DNA of 13,759 nucleotides from Anaerolineae bacterium. GTDB taxonomy: Bacteria > Chloroflexota > Anaerolineae > 4572-78 > J111. The notes below the pieces were generated by a model, which had not been told where the DNA came from, did no database searches, and saw only the letters and a list, made by a program, of their open reading frames with translations. Both the position numbers and the translations under genes were made by a program. This document shows, piece after piece, positions 1,072-12,835 of the stretch. How positions within the stretch are numbered: position 1 is the first letter of the stretch; every line of letters starts with the position of its first letter. The stretch is taken from positions 1 to 13,759 of the forward strand of contig JAGRBY010000133.1 in the NCBI GenBank assembly GCA_020433835.1, given 5' to 3'.

Positions 1072-4000
1072 CTACTCACTTCTTAAAAGTTCAAGCGCTG
1101 CATCATCGATGGGATTCGATCCGAGATTGAGTCTGTTTAACCACTCCTCACGAACAGGCCCATATTGATCATATAAGCCGTTGCTTTTGGACCACGCGAT
1201 AAAATGGGCAAGATCGGATGCTGCTGTGTCGTAGTTTTGGCGAACTTCGGTTAATGCCAAAATTATCGCTCTGTCATGACGTATCCACCCATCATCAGGG
1301 GCTAAAGCAACAGCCTGGTTACAAGCCTCAACCAAATCTTTGGGATTACCCCCGTAAATACCCAGATGACAGAGATCATTCCAATAGATGGCGGTTTTTC
1401 GCAAAGAGGGATTTAAGATGACAACCTCTTTAGAGATCTCTATTGCGCCGTCTATCTGACCTTGTTGGGCTAAGGTGGCGCTTAACTCGATGAGGCTAAC
1501 TGTTATATTTTGAATGATCTCCAGTTTTGTTTGGAGAATTTTTTGTCTTTCAAGTTCATCATTTTTCGATTCTAACAACGTGTCTACTAGCTGTAGCCCC
1601 TGTTGGAAGTGGTTTTTTGCGCCCTCGATGTCTCCTGCCTCAGCCAGTTGTTTGCCCTGTTCGATCTGATCGCTGTAATTGACGATAATAAAGTCTTCGA
1701 AATTGAGCTGTAGATCGGGCGCAATGTCTTTTGCCTGTTGTAATAGTTTTTGTGCTCCTAATAAATCGCCCGATAAACTTGTTTCGCGAGCACGTTCAAG
1801 CAAGGCTCGCGCAATTTCAGTGTTAGGAACAATATCTAAGGTTGGCTCCAATTCTAAAGCGCGTTTATATTGGTTTTGTGCGCCGGCGATGTCGCCATCC
1901 TTGGCCCGTTCTTTGGCTTCGTTAAAGAAACTGGGACCTAAGTTGAGTTGAGGACATGTTTTTCGATAAGGTCCCACTTCAAAGAAATATTGGGCCCATT
2001 CCGACCAGGTTAAATTTCGCCCGGCGTGCCGGCAAGCCTCCTCAAGCCACGTTGTTAAACTGACTTCCCAAATTCTTACCGTACCGCTGATGTCTCCGGA
2101 GACGATGGTTTGCCCATCGGGGCTAAACGCAACCGTGTTGACTGCATTATTGGCCGTATAAACTCCGATCGGTTGATGTGAAGCCGTATCCCACATAAGA
2201 ATTTGAGAATCTCCGCTGCCGGAGACAAGCGTATTACCGTCCGGGCTGAAAGCAAGGGCAAAAATGCCGTCCTTATGACTGCTGAAGGGAGAACCAATCT
2301 GCTGGCGGTTACTCACGTCCCAGATGCGTATCGTTTTGTCGCCACTAGCGGAGGCCAGCCTATGGCTGTCGGGGCTAAACGTCACACTGTTTACAGCACC
2401 ACTATGGCCGGTGATGGTATACGGCACATCCGGCGAGCTTTTTAGATCCCATAGCAAAATGTTTCTGGTTTCATTGCCGGCCGCGAGAAATTGGCCATCG
2501 GGGCTGAAAGCCAAACTGGTTACTGTACCGGCCGTATTTGTAAGCACCGTGCCGGTTGGCACAGTTGCCGATAGATCCCATAGAAAAATCGTATTATCCG
2601 CGCCACCGGAGGCCAAGGTCTGACCATCGGGACTAAAAGCGACGCTGTTGACCCAATCGGTATGCCCTGGCAGGGTTGTGCTAATCGGGTCGGATGAGGA
2701 TAAATCCCATAAGATGATGTTGCTGTCCGCGCTACCGGAGGCCAAGGTCTGACCATCGGGACTAAAAGCGACGCTTTTGACCCCATCGGTATGCCCTAAT
2801 AGGGTTGTGCTAATCGGGTCGGATGAGGATAAATCCCATAAGATGATGTTGGTGTCCGCGCCACCGGAGGCCAAGGTCTGACTATCAGGACTAAAAGCGA
2901 CGCTGTTGACCCAATTGGTGTGCGCTGCGAAGGAATGGGTTGGGCCTCCGTAACCGTCTCGTTTTAGCGCGGTTAGCAAAACCGCTATGGCATTATTGGT
3001 CGGGAATTTATCAACAGCTTCTTTACTTAAAAGTAAGGCTAATTGATTATTGTCGCCTTGGTTGCTATTGAGTTGTGTTAAAGCAATATTGGCCAACCGA
3101 ATAGATTGGGCGATATTTTCTGCTCTCTCAGCCCGTTGCCATTGGGTATTAGCCTGATCCCATTGATACCAGGCCACAATTGCTATTCCAACAGCGATGA
3201 CCAACATTATCGTTATGGTCACGATGGCCCATCTCAATCTTTTATTCGCTCTTAATTGTCGTGTTTGCTCTTCTTCCGCTGCCTGGCTCGCTTGCAGAAA
3301 TTGTTTTTCCAGATGGGTGTCCAGATGATCAAATTGCTTTAAGGCCTCAACCAATTGCGGCCCCTTATACAACTTGGTGGCGGGTTTGCCTTCATTACGC
3401 CATTCTTGAGCCGCTTTGAGAATAGGGTATTTATCGCGCCATTGATCGTTTGAGCGGATAATAGGTTCTATAAAGCGATCGTGTCCTAACTCATACCACT
3501 GTTGGTTGGCCCTTTCTTCTGTACGTAAGAGGAATGCGTTCTGTAATTTGTCGACGATGTGGTTGGGTAGGTGGCCGGTTTTTGTCTCTCCCCGGAGAAC
3601 CAAGTTTCGAATAGTGTTGCCGATTATAAGCTCGCGCTCAAACCAATCGCGTAATTCAGACTCAGATAAATTCGGTTCGTCGTGGGTGACGGCTTTGAGG
3701 GTATCTTCATAAAATTGGGCCAAAGCGCTATCAACAAACTCTGCTAAACTTTCGTTGTTAGCAAGCTTCTTTAGATCAGCTTCAGTGATTTCACCTTGTG
3801 AGTCAGTATGGTCGAGTTGTTCCCACAGTTTGTGACACACCACCTGCAACTGAACCGGCTCGATAAATTGCCCTTTTACGTAATCCGAAGAGCCATTCGC
3901 TTGTGCGATGCGAACGCGTCGAAGGCTATCGACCAGAATCTCAGCAACGTTGGGGGCGAAAGGGCGACCGTGTTTTTCAGCCGGACCTGTTATAGCCAGC

Positions 4001-4650
4001 AAGCCGGATTTTTGATCCATGCGGTGCATATGAAGCCGGCTTCTCAGCCGACCGGGAAGCAGCCATTCGTACCGTTCTAGAGAAGCGACATAATCTTCTC
4101 GCAGAGAAAGCACCACCCATAGTTTATCATACGCGGCCATCGTGGTACGCAACTGCCTAAAAAAATCTTCCCGATGCCGCCATCGATCGGGATGGGTGGT
4201 AAGAATCTCTTCAAATTGGTCAATAATCAAAACGTGTACCGAATCTTGGAGAGAGTCATCGGGAGGGGGGATAAATTTTGATTGTTTAAAGTAATCAACC
4301 AGTGGAGTTGAGGCCAACGTGTAAATATCGTTTTGATTTTCATCGATGCTGAGGAGCAGATTGAGTACAAAAATATTATCGACTTCGTCATCGTCGACAC
4401 TGAGCGGCTCGCCCCCAACTCGGCCGATTGGCAAAACATAGAAGTTTTCTTCTTCTAGAGCGGGAATGAGGCGCGTATTAATTAAAGAGCTTTTTCCCGC
4501 TCCGGATTGCGCATAAAAAAGAACCAATCGTTTCGACATCACAAGCGATATCAGATTTCTTGATTCCTGCTCTCGTCCAAAAAAGAGATCTTTATCTTCT
4601 CGCCCAAACGTTCTTGGACCAACATAAGGATTTCTTGTGCTGGCTATCAA
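1072..4650 (-). CDS. nSTAND-type NTPase with transmembrane helix, WD40 propeller and TPR-like tail
   Basis: This 1192-residue STAND ATPase is of the kind used as a signal-dependent switch in immune or cell-death modules. Residues 7-26 carry the family opening (NPYVGPRTF.RED...FFGRE). Walker A is SGAGKSS with Lys53; Walker B is VLIIDQFEEIL with Asp144 and two following Glu residues. LSLREDYVASL (181-191) and LGHDRFIEPI (388-397) match later STAND motifs. Residues about 473-494 form one hydrophobic helix. About 572-860 make seven WD40 repeats, enough for one propeller; repeats 1-3 are nearly identical. A linker with ACRHAGRNLTWSEW and YRKTCP follows, then TPR-like repeats (about 885-1130). The start is TTG at 4650: an in-frame TGA lies two codons upstream and the conserved domain starts at residue 7. 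AGGA lies 10 nt before it. It begins 7 nt after the SIR2-like gene, so translational coupling is likely. What the sensor domains recognise cannot be read. Confidence 0.9.
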   Translation of the reverse strand: MIASTRNPYVGPRTFGREDKDLFFGREQESRNLISLVMSKRLVLFYAQSGAGKSSLINTRLIPALEEENFYVLPIGRVGGEPLSVDDDEVDNIFVLNLLLSIDENQNDIYTLASTPLVDYFKQSKFIPPPDDSLQDSVHVLIIDQFEEILTTHPDRWRHREDFFRQLRTTMAAYDKLWVVLSLREDYVASLERYEWLLPGRLRSRLHMHRMDQKSGLLAITGPAEKHGRPFAPNVAEILVDSLRRVRIAQANGSSDYVKGQFIEPVQLQVVCHKLWEQLDHTDSQGEITEADLKKLANNESLAEFVDSALAQFYEDTLKAVTHDEPNLSESELRDWFERELIIGNTIRNLVLRGETKTGHLPNHIVDKLQNAFLLRTEERANQQWYELGHDRFIEPIIRSNDQWRDKYPILKAAQEWRNEGKPATKLYKGPQLVEALKQFDHLDTHLEKQFLQASQAAEEEQTRQLRANKRLRWAIVTITIMLVIAVGIAIVAWYQWDQANTQWQRAERAENIAQSIRLANIALTQLNSNQGDNNQLALLLSKEAVDKFPTNNAIAVLLTALKRDGYGGPTHSFAAHTNWVNSVAFSPDSQTLASGGADTNIILWDLSSSDPISTTLLGHTDGVKSVAFSPDGQTLASGSADSNIILWDLSSSDPISTTLPGHTDWVNSVAFSPDGQTLASGGADNTIFLWDLSATVPTGTVLTNTAGTVTSLAFSPDGQFLAAGNETRNILLWDLKSSPDVPYTITGHSGAVNSVTFSPDSHRLASASGDKTIRIWDVSNRQQIGSPFSSHKDGIFALAFSPDGNTLVSGSGDSQILMWDTASHQPIGVYTANNAVNTVAFSPDGQTIVSGDISGTVRIWEVSLTTWLEEACRHAGRNLTWSEWAQYFFEVGPYRKTCPQLNLGPSFFNEAKERAKDGDIAGAQNQYKRALELEPTLDIVPNTEIARALLERARETSLSGDLLGAQKLLQQAKDIAPDLQLNFEDFIIVNYSDQIEQGKQLAEAGDIEGAKNHFQQGLQLVDTLLESKNDELERQKILQTKLEIIQNITVSLIELSATLAQQGQIDGAIEISKEVVILNPSLRKTAIYWNDLCHLGIYGGNPKDLVEACNQAVALAPDDGWIRHDRAIILALTEVRQNYDTAASDLAHFIAWSKSNGLYDQYGPVREEWLNRLNLGSNPIDDAALELLRSE
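2606..2935 (-). repeat. 129-bp tandem repeats encoding WD40 blades
   Basis: Two full units (2606-2734 and 2735-2863) and the start of a third (from 2864) follow each other at an exact 129-bp (43-codon) period. Each begins on the plus strand with CCGGAGGCCAAGGTCTGA. By eye the two full units differ at about 7 of 129 positions. They encode the first blades of the propeller, including the repeated LSSSDPIST segment. The other blades of the same propeller are much more diverged. Confidence 0.9.
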
Positions 4651-4657
4651 GGCTCAA

Positions 4658-5698
4658 CTATCCTAAATGGTTCCACAAATTACTAACAAACCCTTCAACA
4701 TCACTCCAGTAAATCTTAAATTTATAGGTACTGAAGTAGTTTGCTAAATAGTTCTGAACTTGTTGTTTATTTTTTATGCTATTTTCCGGACCAGGGTTTA
4801 ATTGAATAAGAAGGTTATGGGGGCGATTAAAGTTTGAGGTTTGTAGTATTCTTTTGATACTGCCCCTAAAGGCAACTCTAAAATCCCAGCCATAGAGGTT
4901 GTAACCAAGTAAGAAGAGTGCTGTTCTCGATAGTGATTCATGGACAACTATCGGAATGCCACCCGGCCTATCGCCGGGCCGTTCGAGATCTTGAGAGATG
5001 TTCTCGAGAAAATCAAAGTAATTATCTTCTGTTAAAACTAACGATTGAGGGATTGTATCAATTCCAAGCAGATGATAAACAAGCGGATTTTCAACTGTGG
5101 GTTTAACATTGGCCTGCGGTGTTAGGCTGGCAAGCAGGCCATCGGGTTCAAATGTATTCCATAAAGCCTCGTTCCAATGATAAACCCCAATTTGCGGCGA
5201 TCGGCCCGCTTCCTCAAGGGCTTTTTCCATTAAGGTGTGGTAGCTGGTCGTTAAATACAAGGGTAAAGGCAATTTCGCCAGGATAGAAAAGGGGTTACTT
5301 GGCCTTACCACAGCACTGATATAATCTAACTGTTTCGCTATATCAGACAAAGTTAGCTCAGATAACCCATCTTCCAAAAAACCCAGAAAACTGGGGTTAC
5401 TGTTAGGGGCAGTTTTGTTGACCTCTAACAGTTTTTTCTTGAGAAAATCGAGAAAATCAACTTTGGTTAGCCACTCATCGCCGCCATTGATCACGCAGTA
5501 ATAGAGGGCTATATGAGCCAAATTGCTGATGTCTGATAACGGATATTCTATTTTTTCGGCCCACTCCTCGGCAATATCTTTATGCCCAAATAGGTGGGTG
5601 AGAGTAAGCTTATTGCTGAGTAAGGGGGTAAGTTTCTCTTGTTTAATCAGTTGGACAAGATAAGACCATTTGACCTCTTCGTCCGTGTTCTCTGGCAT
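4658..5698 (-). CDS. SIR2-like protein with degenerate NAD-binding and catalytic motifs
   Basis: This 346-residue protein matches SIR2-like (SIR2_2-type) proteins in overall pattern. It has IAEEWAEKIEYPLSDISNLA near residue 42, LPLPLYLTTSYHTLMEKAL (143-161), VYHLLG...SLVLTEDNYFDFLE (207-232), LFLLGYNLYGWDFRVAFR (261-278) and the ending YWSDVEGFVSNLW. In the usual family these correspond to TTNYD, the HG motif and LGYSL.DWDFR. Three key elements are changed. The GAG-type glycine-rich loop expected near residues 25-31 reads PLLSNKL; TTNYD reads TTSYH; and the HG His is Leu211. NADase or deacylase activity is therefore doubtful. No signal peptide or membrane segment is visible, so it is probably cytosolic. 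The ATG at 5698 is preceded by GAGGA, 10 nt upstream. It lies between the TIR-FGE gene (114 nt upstream) and the STAND gene (7 nt downstream), probably in one transcript. Confidence 0.8.
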   Translation of the reverse strand: MPENTDEEVKWSYLVQLIKQEKLTPLLSNKLTLTHLFGHKDIAEEWAEKIEYPLSDISNLAHIALYYCVINGGDEWLTKVDFLDFLKKKLLEVNKTAPNSNPSFLGFLEDGLSELTLSDIAKQLDYISAVVRPSNPFSILAKLPLPLYLTTSYHTLMEKALEEAGRSPQIGVYHWNEALWNTFEPDGLLASLTPQANVKPTVENPLVYHLLGIDTIPQSLVLTEDNYFDFLENISQDLERPGDRPGGIPIVVHESLSRTALFLLGYNLYGWDFRVAFRGSIKRILQTSNFNRPHNLLIQLNPGPENSIKNKQQVQNYLANYFSTYKFKIYWSDVEGFVSNLWNHLG

Positions 5699-5750
5699 AA
5701 GAAAATAGTCCTCAAGTAGCGAAGGTGTTTGTTAGACTTTATCGGAATGA

Positions 5751-5803
5751 AGGTGACAGTCACTTAACGGCTATATGTAAGACCAAAAAAGTGACTGTCA
5801 CCT
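5751..5803. repeat. 53-bp palindromic REP/MITE-like element (short form)
   Basis: The perfect 15-bp inverted arms are AGGTGACAGTCACTT (5751-5765) and AAGTGACTGTCACCT (5789-5803), around a 23-nt interior. Each arm also contains the 11-bp near-palindrome GTGAC(A/T)GTCAC. The same arms bound the 83-bp elements at 7246 and 12753; this copy is 30 bp shorter. It starts 9 nt beyond the TIR-FGE stop and may act as a 3' stem-loop between the two genes. No obvious target-site duplication flanks it. Confidence 0.85.
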
Positions 5804-5812
5804 GGCTTCACT

Positions 5813-7015
5813 TTATTCTTCTAAAACAACTCGAAAGCCAATTGTTTTGTGGGCAGCATCCGGATAATAGCAGCCTCGTGACGTGATTTTTAGGCGTTCC
5901 AGGGGGTCATTATAATCACCACCCCGTAGCACTCTATAAACATTCGTCTCTGCCTGCAGGTCTTCGCGTCCGTCATCGGCTTGATAGGGATAGACATAGT
6001 CACATTTATTCCACTGTTGCCCCCAAAGGGTAGATGTCCACTCCCAAATGTTACCAACCATATTATAGCAGCCGTAAACACTCGCGCCGTCAGGGAAGGC
6101 TCTCACCGACGCTGTTTGGTCCGTAAAACAGTTACACAGCTTATGATCCCACGTATTACCCCAAGGATAAGTTCGACCGTCACTCCCTCGGGCTGCCTTT
6201 TCCCATTCAATTTCAGTAGGCAAACGATATCGCTTGCCGGTTTGCTCGCTGAGCCATTGACAATACGCCAGGGCGTGATACCAGCTAATCTTAACGGCCG
6301 GGTGATCGAGTTTCTCTATCGGTACAAATCGACCTGACCATTCGTAACTGCTATTGCCTTTCTCTCTAGTATCATAGACAAATTTTAGATATGCTTCATT
6401 TGTCACCGGATACTTTCCAATGTAATAACCCGGCAGAGTTACCTCATGTTGGGGAGTTTCCCAACTCAATATATCTGATGCCGGTTGTGTTCCTACCAAA
6501 AAAGGACCGGCGGGAACAAAAACGGTTTCCGGTTCAAAGGGGTCTTCATCCTCCAAATCATTATCACTATGATTACATGTCACAACAGCAGCAATTTTTT
6601 GAACTACCGTTGTTAGTTTTTCATCAACATAGCTGCCATTATTTCCCCAAACCGGTTCACCATTGTCGGGCAATACCTCAATATCCCGCAACCACACAAC
6701 GTCTTGCCAGTAGCAAGCTTTGGCGATTACAGGCACAATGGTCAATTTGTGAAGGCTTTTTTGTTTTAGTAGTGAGGGAAGGACGTTGTCTAAAATATAA
6801 TTTGAGTGGAAAAAGTTGGCTGTAACCAACAAAATGGCAAGCTTAGCTTGATAAATAGCTTGATCAATTTCAGCCTCGGTTTCCATACCGGCCAGAATGT
6901 GAGATTCATCCCAGAGTTTGAGCTTTTTGTCTCGCTCTAAAATGCTCAGATGGGTTAGAAGCGTATTTTTTTCTTCTTCGTCCTTATGATCGTAAATAAT
7001 AATAGCTGGTTCCAT
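5813..7015 (-). CDS. TIR domain fused to FGE-sulfatase (C-type-lectin-like) domain
   Basis: This is a 400-residue two-domain protein and the first gene of the minus-strand cluster. Residues 1 to about 145 are a TIR_2-type domain: AIIIYDHKDEEE for the first strand, WDESHILAG...EIDQAI for the BB-loop region, AILLVTANFFHSNYILDNVLPSLL for the next strand and helix, then TIVPVIAKACYW. At the normally glutamate position of that helix (NELPPLL or DIE in relatives) it has Val78, so NAD hydrolysis is questionable. An acidic linker (150-163) leads to the FGE-sulfatase domain (about 165-399): FVPAGPFLVGT, YYIGKYPVTNEAYLKFV, YRLPTEIEWEKAARG, YPWGN, YNMVGNIWEWT, RVLRGGDYN and TIGFRVV. It lacks the paired Cys arrangement of true formylglycine-generating enzymes and is probably a binding module. 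AAAGGGA lies 8 nt before the ATG. Two degenerate NAD-domain genes and a STAND gene in a row suggest a defence or conflict role, which is inferred. Confidence 0.88.
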   Translation of the reverse strand: MEPAIIIYDHKDEEEKNTLLTHLSILERDKKLKLWDESHILAGMETEAEIDQAIYQAKLAILLVTANFFHSNYILDNVLPSLLKQKSLHKLTIVPVIAKACYWQDVVWLRDIEVLPDNGEPVWGNNGSYVDEKLTTVVQKIAAVVTCNHSDNDLEDEDPFEPETVFVPAGPFLVGTQPASDILSWETPQHEVTLPGYYIGKYPVTNEAYLKFVYDTREKGNSSYEWSGRFVPIEKLDHPAVKISWYHALAYCQWLSEQTGKRYRLPTEIEWEKAARGSDGRTYPWGNTWDHKLCNCFTDQTASVRAFPDGASVYGCYNMVGNIWEWTSTLWGQQWNKCDYVYPYQADDGREDLQAETNVYRVLRGGDYNDPLERLKITSRGCYYPDAAHKTIGFRVVLEE

Positions 7016-7245: not shown

Positions 7246-7328
7246 AGGTGACAGTCACATATTGGTAATAAATCAGCGTTCGATTAGCCCAAATAGATCG
7301 ATTTAGGGCGTCCAAATGACTGTCACCT
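7246..7328 (-). repeat. 83-bp palindromic REP/MITE-like element, copy in reverse orientation
   Basis: The ends are AGGTGACAGTCA (7246-7257) and TGACTGTCACCT (7317-7328), a perfect 12-bp inverted pair. Reverse complemented, the full 83 bp aligns without gaps to the copy at 12753-12835, with 61 of 83 positions identical by eye. The shared interior includes GGCTAA and ACGCT. The strand given is relative to the 12753 copy taken as plus. No target-site duplication is evident. Confidence 0.85.
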
Positions 7329-7406
7329 TTATAATTGTGCAAGCCCTGAGTTATAAATAAACTGCGTGGCTTTAACGATATGTTGTACTAGTTAAAATTT
7401 CCTACA

Positions 7407-9398: not shown

Positions 9399-12300
9399 GT
9401 GACGAACGGATATTATCACTACCCGGCGATAAATCAAGACACCGTTGTTTTCGTGTGTGAGGATGATCTCTGGACCGTACCTGCCAATGGCGGTGTGGCT
9501 CGCCGCCTAACTACCAATCTGGGGATTTCTTCTCATCCGGCGCTATCGCCTGATGGCCAACGCTTGGCCTTTATCGGTCGCGAAGAAGGGGAAGCTGAAG
9601 TATACGTTATGCCGGCTAAGGGGGGCGACACCCAACGGCTCACCTACTTAGGCAGCAGCACCACCGTTTTAGATTGGACCACCGACGGAAAAATTATCAT
9701 CGCCAGCGACGCCGGGCAGCCTTTTGCTCGATTAACCCCGCTCTATACGCTCGACCCCCACGGCGGGCAGCCAGAACCACTGCCCTACGGACCGGCGCGA
9801 TCTATCTCCTTTGGGCCTGAAGGCGGTTTAGTTATTGGCCGTCGGGCCGAAGATTTGGCCCGCTGGAAGCGCTATCGCGGCGGCACCGCCGGCGATATCT
9901 GGATCGATATCAAGGGTAGTGGTAAATTCAAATCGCTGCTGAACCTGAAAAGCAACCTGGCCTGCCCCATGTGGATCGGTGAGCGCATCTACTTTTTATC
10001 CGATCACGAAGGCATCGGCAACATTTACTCGTGCGATATCAAGGGCAAAGATATTCAACGCCACACCCATCACGAAGACTTTTACGTGCGCCAACCCGAT
10101 ACAGACGGCCGGCGCATCGTGTATCGAGCCGGAGCCGATCTCTATATTTTTGACCCGGCCCAGAAGAATAAAAGCGCCATCCAAAAAATCGTCATCGAAT
10201 ACTACAGCCCCCGCGTTCAGCGCAGCCGCAAATTTGTGTCGCCTGAGTCGTATATAGAGGAAATCGCGCTGCATCCGGTCGGCCACAGCGTCGCTATGTC
10301 GGTGCGGGGCAAGGTTTTCTCGATGGCCAATTGGGACGGCGCGGTTTTTCAATACGGCGAGCGGCAGGGCGTGCGCTATCGCCTGGCCGAATGGCTCAAC
10401 GACGGTAAACGCTTGGTGATGGTCAGCGATGCCACCGGCGAAGAAACCCTGGAAATCCACACCGATGGTTCGCTGCCGGCCACAGAGCATGCTGTCGAGC
10501 GGGTGGAGAATCTGGATTTGGGCCGGGCCGTTGGATTAGTGGTCTCGCCGAGGGACGATGCCGTCGTCATCGCTAATCATCGGCTGGAGTTGCTCTATGT
10601 CGATCTCAAACAAAGAAGCACCCGCATGCTCGACAAAAGCAATTATGGCCGTATCGCCGGTATCGACTGGTCGCCTGATGGTCAGTGGATAGCGTACGGG
10701 TTGCGCACATCGCACCACACCTGCGCTATTAAAATGTGTCATATCGAAACAGGCGAGACCCATTTTATTACCTCGCCCAATAACTTTTTCGATTTCGGCC
10801 CCAGCTTCGATCCCGGCGGTAAATATCTTTACTTCATTTCCTACCGCGAGTTCGATCCGGTCTATGATCGTCTCTACTTCGATCTTAACTTTCCCAGAGG
10901 CAGCCGCCCCTATTTGGTCACCCTGCAAGAAGATTTGCCGAATCCGTTTATGATTATGCCTCCTAATGCCAACAATGGCAGCAAACCCGAGGAGAAATCG
11001 AAGAACGAAGATGGTAAAAGCGATGAAGTCGACAAAACCGAGTCGGAAACCAAGGACGAAAAGAAACCCCAAAACGGCGAAAAGTTTATGCGGATCGATT
11101 TTCAGGGCATCACCCAGCGGGTGTCGGCCTTTCCGGTTTCTGAGGGGCGCTACAGCCAGGTGCGTGGAGTGAAAGATAAGGTCTACTTTACCTCGTTTCC
11201 CATCGAGGGCAGCCTAGGGCGCTCTTGGCGTAACAGCGGCCAAGAAGCCGGTAAGGGGGCGCTGGAATGGTATGACTTTGTTGAGCATAAAAAAGAGTTT
11301 GTGGTTAGCGGCTTGAATGGGTTTGATGTCAATCGCAAACGTGATTATTTGATTTATCGCTCCGGCAGAAATATGCGGGTGCTTAAAGTGGGCGATAAAC
11401 CGGACAACAATGCCTCCGGCTATACCAAAAAGAGCGGTTGGCTCAAACTGAACCGACTAAGTGTTGAAATTAGCCCGCCGCAAGAATGGGCGCAAATGTT
11501 TCGCGAGGCCTGGCGGCTTCAGCGCGATCACTTCTGGAGCGAAGATATGTCCAGCGTTGATTGGCAGAGCGTTTACCAACGCTACTATCCGCTGGTTGAG
11601 CGTATCTCGACCCGCGCCGAATTCTCCGACCTGCTGTGGGAGATGCAGGGCGAACTGGGCACCTCGCACGCCTACGAGATTGGCGGCGATTATCGCCGGC
11701 CACCTCGCTACAGCCAGGGCTTTCTCGGCGCTGACTTTGAGTACGACGCTGTGTCCGATGGCTATCGCTTCACCCACATTGTGCAAGGTGATACCTGGAT
11801 TCGCCGCAGCGACTCGCCCCTGAACCGCTTGGGCGTCAACGTTAAACCGGGCGATATTCTGCTGGCTATCGACGGTCAGCGCCTCAGCCGTGATGTATCA
11901 CCTCAACAGAGGCTGGTCAATCGTGCCCACGATGAGGTTCAGCTTACCGTACTCGCCGCAAACGGCGATAGCCCCTCTCCCAACGGAGCCGATTCGAAAC
12001 CGCTGGCCCGTACTGTCCTGGTCAGAACCTTGGCCGATGAAACTTCGGCCCGCTATCGTGAATGGGTCGAAGCCAATCGCCGCCGCGTTCATGACGCCAC
12101 GGATGAGCGCGTAGGGTACGTTCATATTCCTAACATGGGGCCAATTGGGTATGCCGAATTCCACCGCTACTATCTGTCTGAGGCTGAGCGACAGGGTTTA
12201 ATTGTCGATGTGCGCTTTAACGGCGGCGGTCACGTATCGCAGTTGCTCATTGAGAAATTGGCCCGTCGCCGGTTAGGATACGATCAACCGCGCTATGGGG

Positions 12301-12731
12301 CCGCAACAAGCTACCCCTACCACGCTGTTTTGGGGCCGATGGTTGCGCTCGCCAACGAATACGCCGGCTCTGATGGCGATATCTTTAGCCACGTCTTTAA
12401 ACTGATGAAATTAGGACCGCTTATCGGTAAACGTACATGGGGTGGCGTGATTGGCATCTCGCCGCGCCATGCCCTGGCTGACGGGACGATAACGACCCAA
12501 CCGGAATTTTCTTTCTGGTTCGAAGATGTCGGCTGGGGTGTTGAAAATTATGGTACCAACCCCGATATCGAGGTTGATATCAAACCGCAGGATTATGCGC
12601 GTGGCAAAGATACCCAGCTTGATCGTGCCCTTAAAGAGATTTTGAAGCTGTTAGAGAAAAATCCGCCGCAAGTTCCTGATTTCGGCCCTCGTCCCAGGTT
12701 AGGGTTACCCAAGCTGCCCAAAACGAAATAG
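9399..12731 (+). CDS. Tricorn-type protease homolog (S41 family)
   Basis: This 1110-residue protein is close to the usual tricorn length. Tricorn cuts short peptides released by larger proteases. The N-terminal half is beta-propeller: the first blades read DLWTVPANGG, LTTNLGISSHPALSPDGQRLAF and VYVMPAKGGDTQRLT, and a second set includes IDWSPDGQWIAYG. A low-complexity Lys/Glu/Asp/Ser linker (about 525-560) interrupts the propeller region. The C-terminal half has a helical domain (about 690-755), a PDZ domain (about 774-855) and the S41 core (about 900-1080). The catalytic elements fit tricorn: GTSHAY with Ser756 and His757, AGSDGD with candidate nucleophile Ser991, and VENYGTNPD with Glu1049. 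RFNGGG (about 937-942) suits the oxyanion region. There is no signal peptide, so it is cytosolic. The gene is GC-rich and follows the ligase gene after 242 nt. A functional link between the two is not shown. Confidence 0.9.
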   Translation: MTNGYYHYPAINQDTVVFVCEDDLWTVPANGGVARRLTTNLGISSHPALSPDGQRLAFIGREEGEAEVYVMPAKGGDTQRLTYLGSSTTVLDWTTDGKIIIASDAGQPFARLTPLYTLDPHGGQPEPLPYGPARSISFGPEGGLVIGRRAEDLARWKRYRGGTAGDIWIDIKGSGKFKSLLNLKSNLACPMWIGERIYFLSDHEGIGNIYSCDIKGKDIQRHTHHEDFYVRQPDTDGRRIVYRAGADLYIFDPAQKNKSAIQKIVIEYYSPRVQRSRKFVSPESYIEEIALHPVGHSVAMSVRGKVFSMANWDGAVFQYGERQGVRYRLAEWLNDGKRLVMVSDATGEETLEIHTDGSLPATEHAVERVENLDLGRAVGLVVSPRDDAVVIANHRLELLYVDLKQRSTRMLDKSNYGRIAGIDWSPDGQWIAYGLRTSHHTCAIKMCHIETGETHFITSPNNFFDFGPSFDPGGKYLYFISYREFDPVYDRLYFDLNFPRGSRPYLVTLQEDLPNPFMIMPPNANNGSKPEEKSKNEDGKSDEVDKTESETKDEKKPQNGEKFMRIDFQGITQRVSAFPVSEGRYSQVRGVKDKVYFTSFPIEGSLGRSWRNSGQEAGKGALEWYDFVEHKKEFVVSGLNGFDVNRKRDYLIYRSGRNMRVLKVGDKPDNNASGYTKKSGWLKLNRLSVEISPPQEWAQMFREAWRLQRDHFWSEDMSSVDWQSVYQRYYPLVERISTRAEFSDLLWEMQGELGTSHAYEIGGDYRRPPRYSQGFLGADFEYDAVSDGYRFTHIVQGDTWIRRSDSPLNRLGVNVKPGDILLAIDGQRLSRDVSPQQRLVNRAHDEVQLTVLAANGDSPSPNGADSKPLARTVLVRTLADETSARYREWVEANRRRVHDATDERVGYVHIPNMGPIGYAEFHRYYLSEAERQGLIVDVRFNGGGHVSQLLIEKLARRRLGYDQPRYGAATSYPYHAVLGPMVALANEYAGSDGDIFSHVFKLMKLGPLIGKRTWGGVIGISPRHALADGTITTQPEFSFWFEDVGWGVENYGTNPDIEVDIKPQDYARGKDTQLDRALKEILKLLEKNPPQVPDFGPRPRLGLPKLPKTK

Positions 12732-12752
12732 GTATGAGCTACGCAGTTCAAA

Positions 12753-12835
12753 AGGTGACAGTCACTTTGATACAATATATCGCGCTATGTAGGCTAAACG
12801 GACGCTCGTATTCAATCGATAAGTGACTGTCACCT
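12753..12835 (+). repeat. 83-bp palindromic REP/MITE-like element
   Basis: The perfect arms are AGGTGACAGTCACTT (12753-12767) and AAGTGACTGTCACCT (12821-12835), extendable by one more base pair (12752 with 12836). The 53-nt interior matches the interior of the 7246-7328 copy on the opposite strand without gaps. It starts 21 nt after the tricorn-type stop codon, a typical REP position, and may stabilise or end that transcript. Confidence 0.88.

Follow-up and report, generated by a model that had tools for sequence, protein, structure and literature searches.

The window analysed here is a stretch of 13,759 nt of DNA from an uncultured Anaerolineae bacterium of the Chloroflexota (contig JAGRBY010000133.1), and its minus strand carries a trio of genes encoding a TIR-FGE protein, a SIR2_2-like protein and an nSTAND1 protein with a transmembrane (TM) helix followed by WD40 and TPR repeats (nSTAND1-TM-WD40-TPR). 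A preliminary description, made from the letters alone, had placed three minus-strand genes in series here with the last two 7 nt apart. Open reading frames (ORFs) were indeed found at these coordinates (Table 1); the gap between the SIR2-like and nSTAND genes was measured as 7 nt, with a TTG start, and 114 nt separate the TIR-FGE and SIR2-like genes. The existence of a SIR2-nSTAND pair that combines with swappable effectors is well supported by the comparisons described below.

The SIR2-like gene and its nSTAND partner

A scan of a genome collection yielded 146 relatives of the SIR2-like protein, and the best 80 of the 146 loci were analysed. A SIR2-like ORF was called in 78 of the 80 (L031 and L050, which have none, were left out of the adjacency counts), and four of the 78 stop at a contig edge, leaving 74; L121 and L134 end at the SIR2-like gene. 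An nSTAND gene is the next same-strand gene after the SIR2-like gene in 60 of these 74 loci; elsewhere in these loci, 8 of 677 genes are followed by one. The adjacency exceeds chance. The two genes overlap or lie within 75 bp of each other in 53 of the 60 adjacent pairs, and an nSTAND gene is found within two genes in 64/74 loci. Of the downstream neighbours, 37 out of 69 were compared with Pfam, and of the upstream ones 45 out of 49; nSTAND was confirmed in 36 of the 37 downstream proteins (the remaining one is MurJ, in L009), and WD40 is present in 17 of the 37. Directly upstream of the SIR2-like gene, an FGE protein is encoded in 15 of 72 loci. A second sample of 400 Chloroflexota genomes contained SIR2-like genes (E <= 1e-10) at 23 places in 18 genomes, two of them at contig ends, and nSTAND lies directly downstream in 20 of the 21 places away from contig ends. 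Eight of the 23 places (one at a contig end) are sequences of the first scan; nSTAND is present at 13 of the 14 new ones. The trio is not confined to this genome; confinement to one genome is what the preliminary description had named as counting against it. Of the co-occurrence that it proposed to look for, the SIR2-like/nSTAND part holds, and the form with TIR-FGE was found in one other fetched locus (L024).

Judged by their sequences, the partner NTPases form a clade of their own. Scored with a profile built from the SIR2-locus NTPases, the second-sample partners reach 332-528 bits (132 for L133), and the best ordinary nSTAND1 loci of 30 of the 400 genomes reach 42-118 bits, taking the best stretch per locus. 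No SIR2-like match was found in the flanks searched around these 30 loci (up to 1.5 kb; less than 100 bp for L141). When a tree was built by a quick method, the 30 ordinary nSTAND1s were set apart by a branch with 99% support, and 91 rows, including all SIR2-adjacent NTPases but one, lie on the other side of a 99% branch; L133 and L026_2962 group with the ordinary nSTAND1s. The partner rows span bacterial and archaeal phyla, among them Chloroflexota, Actinomycetota, Planctomycetota, Methanobacteriota, Pseudomonadota and Acidobacteriota.

The window's nSTAND1 domain matches Pfam at 2.2e-34 (120.1 bits, cut-off 27.1) and its P-loop is intact. The P-loop motif [SG]xGK[ST] is present in 63 of 63 SIR2-adjacent nSTANDs; the strict Walker A pattern fits 1/63 and a second pattern 38/63, as the P-loop mostly begins with A or S. 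The WD40 repeats (8.5e-77, seven stretches), the TPR region and the membrane helix of the preliminary description were all detected. Five Lys/Arg residues precede the helix and one follows it, and a single hydrophobic helix after the NTPase is found in 48 of the 55 partner proteins that continue for more than 120 residues. Beyond this helix some relatives carry BNR-type repeats, an M23 peptidase or an LGFP repeat, and SH3_3 and PPC matches there fall just under the Pfam cut-off; all of these are domain types usually found outside the cell. Because the helix is single and positively flanked on the NTPase side, and because such domains lie beyond it in relatives, the sensor part is probably extracytoplasmic, with the NTPase, SIR2-like and effector proteins in the cytoplasm. 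The nSTAND proteins of L004, L005 and L014 have an FHA domain N-terminal to nSTAND1, which suggests a phosphopeptide input.

Lost catalytic sites and exchangeable effectors

The SIR2-like protein is recognised by Pfam as SIR2_2 alone (2.4e-13), with no signal-binding domain (SLOG or other). Its structure model is confident and the best structural match is ThsA; in the alignment, ThsA 4-281, the SIR2 part of that protein, covers residues 5-346 of the 346 in the model. The predicted fold is retained and all three sirtuin motifs, GAGxS, TTNxD and HG, are lost (Table 1). Serine occupies the Asn site in 103 of 120 listed relatives, and the change is therefore old. The stretch SLVLTEDDY (window residues 219-227) is nearly invariant despite the decay of the catalytic motifs, with Glu224 present in 81/81 locus domains and 120/120 listed proteins, and is a candidate partner-binding or structural site.

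The TIR domain of the window also departs from the canonical pattern. Glutamate, presumably catalytic, stands at the V78 column in 12 of 13 aligned relatives, and the window and P0124 have Val; the WCLDEL glutamate of plant TIRs (PDB) aligns one residue earlier, to N77. Neither domain of the type that degrades nicotinamide adenine dinucleotide (NAD) thus keeps its canonical residues, and a reading of the TIR and SIR2 proteins as NAD-targeting effectors, which the preliminary description had called a common role of these domains, is not supported by the sequence of this locus. The third domain, FGE, lacks in its C-terminal part the cysteine pair that the FGE enzyme requires, and is probably a binding module.

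The window SIR2 groups with the SIR2-TIR fusions P0009 and P0002 (a 91% fork inside a 96% set). The window TIR matches the TIRs of these fusions (3e-41 and 2e-35) as well as it does the nearest TIRs of TIR-FGE proteins (P0125, 1e-40; P0124, 8e-37), so that the two families, TIR and SIR2, occur in near relatives as one polypeptide. A reverse search of the 400 genomes with the TIR-FGE protein returned mostly FGE-domain-only matches, and a SIR2-like gene adjoins the match in 2 of 30 fetched loci (L087, which is L024, and L091).

Other relatives carry other effectors. CHAT was called by its own profile, with Pfam run on 10 long or fused examples, and EAD7 by a profile built from FGE N-termini. CHAT is fused to 45 of 81 SIR2 domains. 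Where a SIR2 of the window's clade is not fused, the upstream FGE protein carries CHAT (L001, L012, L028, L039, L046), TIR (L024 and the window), EAD7 (L003) or an N-terminal part lacking a Pfam name. TIR is joined to the SIR2 C-terminus in P0002 and P0009; EAD7 is found at the C-terminus in L074 and L076, and in 17 listed proteins (including P0025, P0027 and P0061) it is inserted in mid-SIR2 (around residues 184-259), where it separates the Asn motif from the His motif. CHAT, TIR and EAD7 each appear in two settings, joined to a SIR2-like protein or carried by an FGE protein. The conserved His and Cys of CHAT, which we take to be catalytic, are kept in 49/50 and 48/50 cases (45 CHAT-SIR2 and 5 CHAT-FGE proteins). 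A triple fusion CHAT-SIR2-TIR of 879 aa is encoded in Geodermatophilus (L041:8804-11443), with no nSTAND called adjacent.

Loss of the SIR2 site goes together with the presence of a second effector, defined as CHAT, TIR or FGE called by its own profile in the SIR2 protein or the preceding gene. Both Asn and His are kept by 3 of 62 SIR2 domains with such an effector, against 14 of 18 without; all three motifs are intact in 0/62 and 12/18, respectively, with L022 and L049 exemplifying the intact type. None of the 45 CHAT-SIR2 fusions keeps both residues, and the comparison of fused with unfused SIR2 gives p = 7e-8, a value that ignores kinship. An instructive case is that of three Methanosarcinaceae proteins (L047, L048 and L063) that end in a CHAT domain: they show Thr in place of Asn, and the other members of the 17-row set (91%) to which they belong retain both residues.

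Three diversity-generating retroelements, in which other FGE genes lie beside a reverse transcriptase, were seen in genomes of this collection (L084, L085 and L086, from the genomes of L003, L010 and L001/L021). Their FGE-end variable repeats differ from the downstream templates almost exclusively at template adenines (17/18, 20/21 and 18/19 mismatches, respectively); in L084, for example, the FGE gene end is at 1020-1136 and the template at 2805-2921. The FGE ends of L001, L003, L005, L010, L012 and L021 have no match to these three templates, and no template repeat was found in the window. The FGE end of L021 matches an FGE gene in L086. When the last 240 bp of the locus FGE genes were compared with the fetched loci, the matches were FGE genes, and the close FGE neighbours L035 and L054 differ by ordinary divergence.

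Table 1. Features of the three-gene cluster, with positions in the window
Feature	Position	Strand	Basis
TIR-FGE protein, 400 aa	5813..7015	-	ORF; Pfam PF13676 + PF03781
TIR domain, residues 6-103	6707..7000	-	Pfam TIR_2 1.3e-6; PADLOC ThsB model 1e-17
N77-V78, glutamate site	6782..6787	-	Alignment with relatives and plant TIRs
FGE-sulfatase domain, residues 162-397	5825..6532	-	Pfam PF03781, 1.9e-52
Inverted repeat AGGTGACAGTCACTT...AAGTGACTGTCACCT, between TIR-FGE and SIR2-like genes	5751..5808		Repeat scan, folding
SIR2_2-like protein (346 aa) with SIR2 fold but without the catalytic motifs	4658..5698	-	Pfam SIR2_2, motif alignment, model
GAGxS motif place; window reads PLLSNKLTL	5600..5626	-	Motif alignment
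S152 at ThsA TTNxD asparagine place	5243..5245	-	Alignment
L211 at HG histidine place	5066..5068	-	Alignment
nSTAND1-TM-WD40-TPR protein, 1192 aa	1072..4650	-	ORF, Pfam, hydropathy scan
nSTAND1 NTPase, residues 8-395	3466..4629	-	Pfam PF20703
P-loop AQSGAGKS, residues 47-54, intact	4489..4512	-	Sequence
Predicted membrane helix (residues 475-493) with positive NTPase-side flank	3172..3228	-	Simple hydropathy scan
WD40 propeller, about residues 570-875	2026..2943	-	Pfam
TPR region, C-terminal	1072..1983	-	TPR_2 1.7e-11

The trio is bounded by an ORF with a weak match (563-1054) and by an acyl-CoA ligase gene, whose product is 91% identical to a protein named Anaerolineae; the annotated flanking genes of the window are housekeeping genes. 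The hairpin between the TIR-FGE and SIR2-like genes is strong (z -7.1). It belongs to an interspersed inverted-repeat element with arms AGGTGACAGTCAC/GTGACTGTCACCT, present in the window at 5751-5808, 7246-7337 and 12744-12835 and in exact form in 2 of 121 Chloroflexota genomes searched, which looks like a repetitive extragenic palindromic (REP) or miniature inverted-repeat transposable element (MITE). The plausible upstream promoter of the preliminary description carries no weight, since 12 sigma-70-like sites were found in the region against 11.9 expected in shuffles; promoter and terminator scans are both near the shuffled background, and an Rfam search gave no match. A tricorn-like protease gene (S41, PDZ, PD40 repeats) lies at 9399-12731 on the strand opposite the cluster, with no evident link to it.

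A putative receptor operon and alternative explanations

The reading given in the preliminary description, with the STAND protein as switch and the TIR-FGE and SIR2-like proteins as partners, is supported in part. We think it rather probable that the trio is an operon for an NLR-like receptor anchored in the membrane, which works through an adaptor derived from SIR2 and through effectors that can be swapped. The nSTAND protein would be the switch: a ligand would be sensed by its WD40/TPR part, which probably lies outside the cytoplasm, and the cytoplasmic NTPase would then oligomerise with a nucleoside triphosphate. The SIR2-like protein, no longer an NADase, would couple the NTPase to the effector as an adaptor or scaffold, and such a pseudoenzyme-adaptor mechanism is the best reading. 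TIR-FGE would dock on it via TIR, with the lectin-fold FGE adding a binding function; in relatives the same SIR2-nSTAND core is accompanied by CHAT, a different TIR, EAD7 adaptors or a SIR2 NADase that looks intact. The operon may act in defence, possibly against phages, or in kin recognition. A broader proposition is offered tentatively, namely that widespread membrane-spanning NLR-like receptors of bacteria and archaea turned an ancestral SIR2 NADase into a dead adaptor: the site would be kept where SIR2 is the sole effector and would decay once CHAT, TIR or effectors borne by EAD take over, leaving a docking platform between an outward-looking STAND and swappable effectors.

Several observations weigh against these proposals. 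Ten of the 74 SIR2-like genes have no nSTAND within two genes, and the nSTAND of L133 adjoins a SIR2-like gene and groups nevertheless with the ordinary ones. The only other fetched locus combining TIR-FGE with SIR2-nSTAND, L024, has a TIR just 15% identical to that of the window and carries Glu at the N77 column; more than one recruitment of TIR is therefore probable. The SIR2-TIR fusions retain the TIR glutamate, and TIR may therefore be an enzyme there. The association of site loss with a second effector comes down, on the tree, to two or three independent contrasts (sign test p = 1, no power), and it has exceptions in both directions, the site being kept beside an FGE partner in L001, L012 and L015 and lost where no partner is recognised in L002, L008, L009 and L021.

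Among the alternatives, a module for housekeeping or developmental signalling rather than for defence, such as one for cell-surface sensing or for recognising kin in filaments, seems to us unlikely but deserves attention. It would suit the likely extracytoplasmic sensor, the cell-wall-type domains of some relatives and the housekeeping flanks, and of 25 stretches in viral contigs that matched a pattern none was confirmed as a relative. Against it, the CHAT, TIR, EAD7 and STAND parts are typical of described conflict systems (PMC8195603; PMC10907252; this and the other papers cited by PMC number are represented here by excerpts, to which statements about them are limited). We consider it improbable that the SIR2-like protein, the TIR or both remain active through other residues, with NAD depletion still the output. 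The near-invariant LTEDDY would fit such an atypical enzyme, and sirtuin motifs can vary, since in Avs5 a functional NG replaces HG; however, Asn-to-Ala in TTNxD, or Ala or Gln at the HG position, abolishes Avs5 defence (PMC12931631), and the window has S and L at these sites and has lost GAGxS too.

Loss of key residues from both NADase-type domains might be expected of a decaying copy, in a family active elsewhere and at a locus now drifting to loss. That explanation appears quite improbable, given three full-length open ORFs, a confident SIR2 model, an intact P-loop and the age of the Asn-site change. A Thoeris-like pathway, in which TIR would make a cyclic ADP-ribose signal, SIR2 would then destroy NAD+ and STAND would be the upstream sensor, is highly improbable: besides the missing sirtuin motifs, the missing TIR glutamate and the lack of any second Pfam domain, for instance one for signal binding, on the SIR2-like protein, nSTAND is the regular neighbour of the family and CHAT is fused to more than half of its SIR2 domains. 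The receptor-adaptor reading, if correct, would show an immune enzyme becoming an adaptor, as one SIR2 family with a constant STAND partner would exist in three states: as an NADase whose site is intact, in decay next to a CHAT protease that is itself intact, and as no more than a connector. The compact two-gene core, present in Chloroflexota, Actinomycetota, Planctomycetota, Methanosarcina and others, would also allow natural effectors to be compared for receptor-to-effector coupling.

Comparison with known systems

The SIR2-nSTAND pair falls among STAND-centred conflict systems and has not previously been named in the literature searched. In a search that took in few subscription journals and no supplements, no paper was found to name a pair of SIR2 with nSTAND or of CHAT with SIR2; further related work includes Kaur et al. 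(2020; PMC7159879), Dore et al. (2024; PMC10907252) and PMC13174449.

With Thoeris (ThsA/ThsB) the trio shares a SIR2 fold beside a TIR protein. Unlike Thoeris, it includes a STAND switch and has no canonical SIR2 or TIR active-site residues, and ThsA's SIR2 part takes up the entire SIR2-like protein. Membership of Thoeris was rejected on the NADase Asn and His (S152, L211), the TIR glutamate (N77/V78) and the signal-binding domain, all of which are missing. This is also a warning for annotation, because TIR plus SIR2 would be taken as Thoeris-like. Avs5, as described in PMC12931631, joins nSTAND3 to an active SIR2 in a single polypeptide; here, in contrast, there are two genes, an nSTAND of type 1 (PF20703), a predicted membrane helix and lost SIR2 motifs. 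The human noncanonical sirtuins FAM118A and FAM118B keep the Asn and His needed for their joint NAD activity, residues that are lost here, and the excerpts describe no STAND partner for them (PMC12700824).

The trio also resembles the nSTAND1/FGS conflict systems described by Kaur et al. (2021; PMC8195603), in which TIR, caspase and EAD parts occur. The window shares with them an nSTAND1 above the cut-off, an FGE/FGS lectin-fold domain in an operon with effector or EAD domains (the TIR-FGE gene), and parts of the interchangeable TIR, caspase and EAD types. It differs in that the excerpts of that paper mention no SIR2-like protein as a partner for the NTPase (SIR2 is named there once, for another system), in that FGE is carried here on a separate protein, and in that the NTPase splits from the 30 sampled ordinary nSTAND1s.

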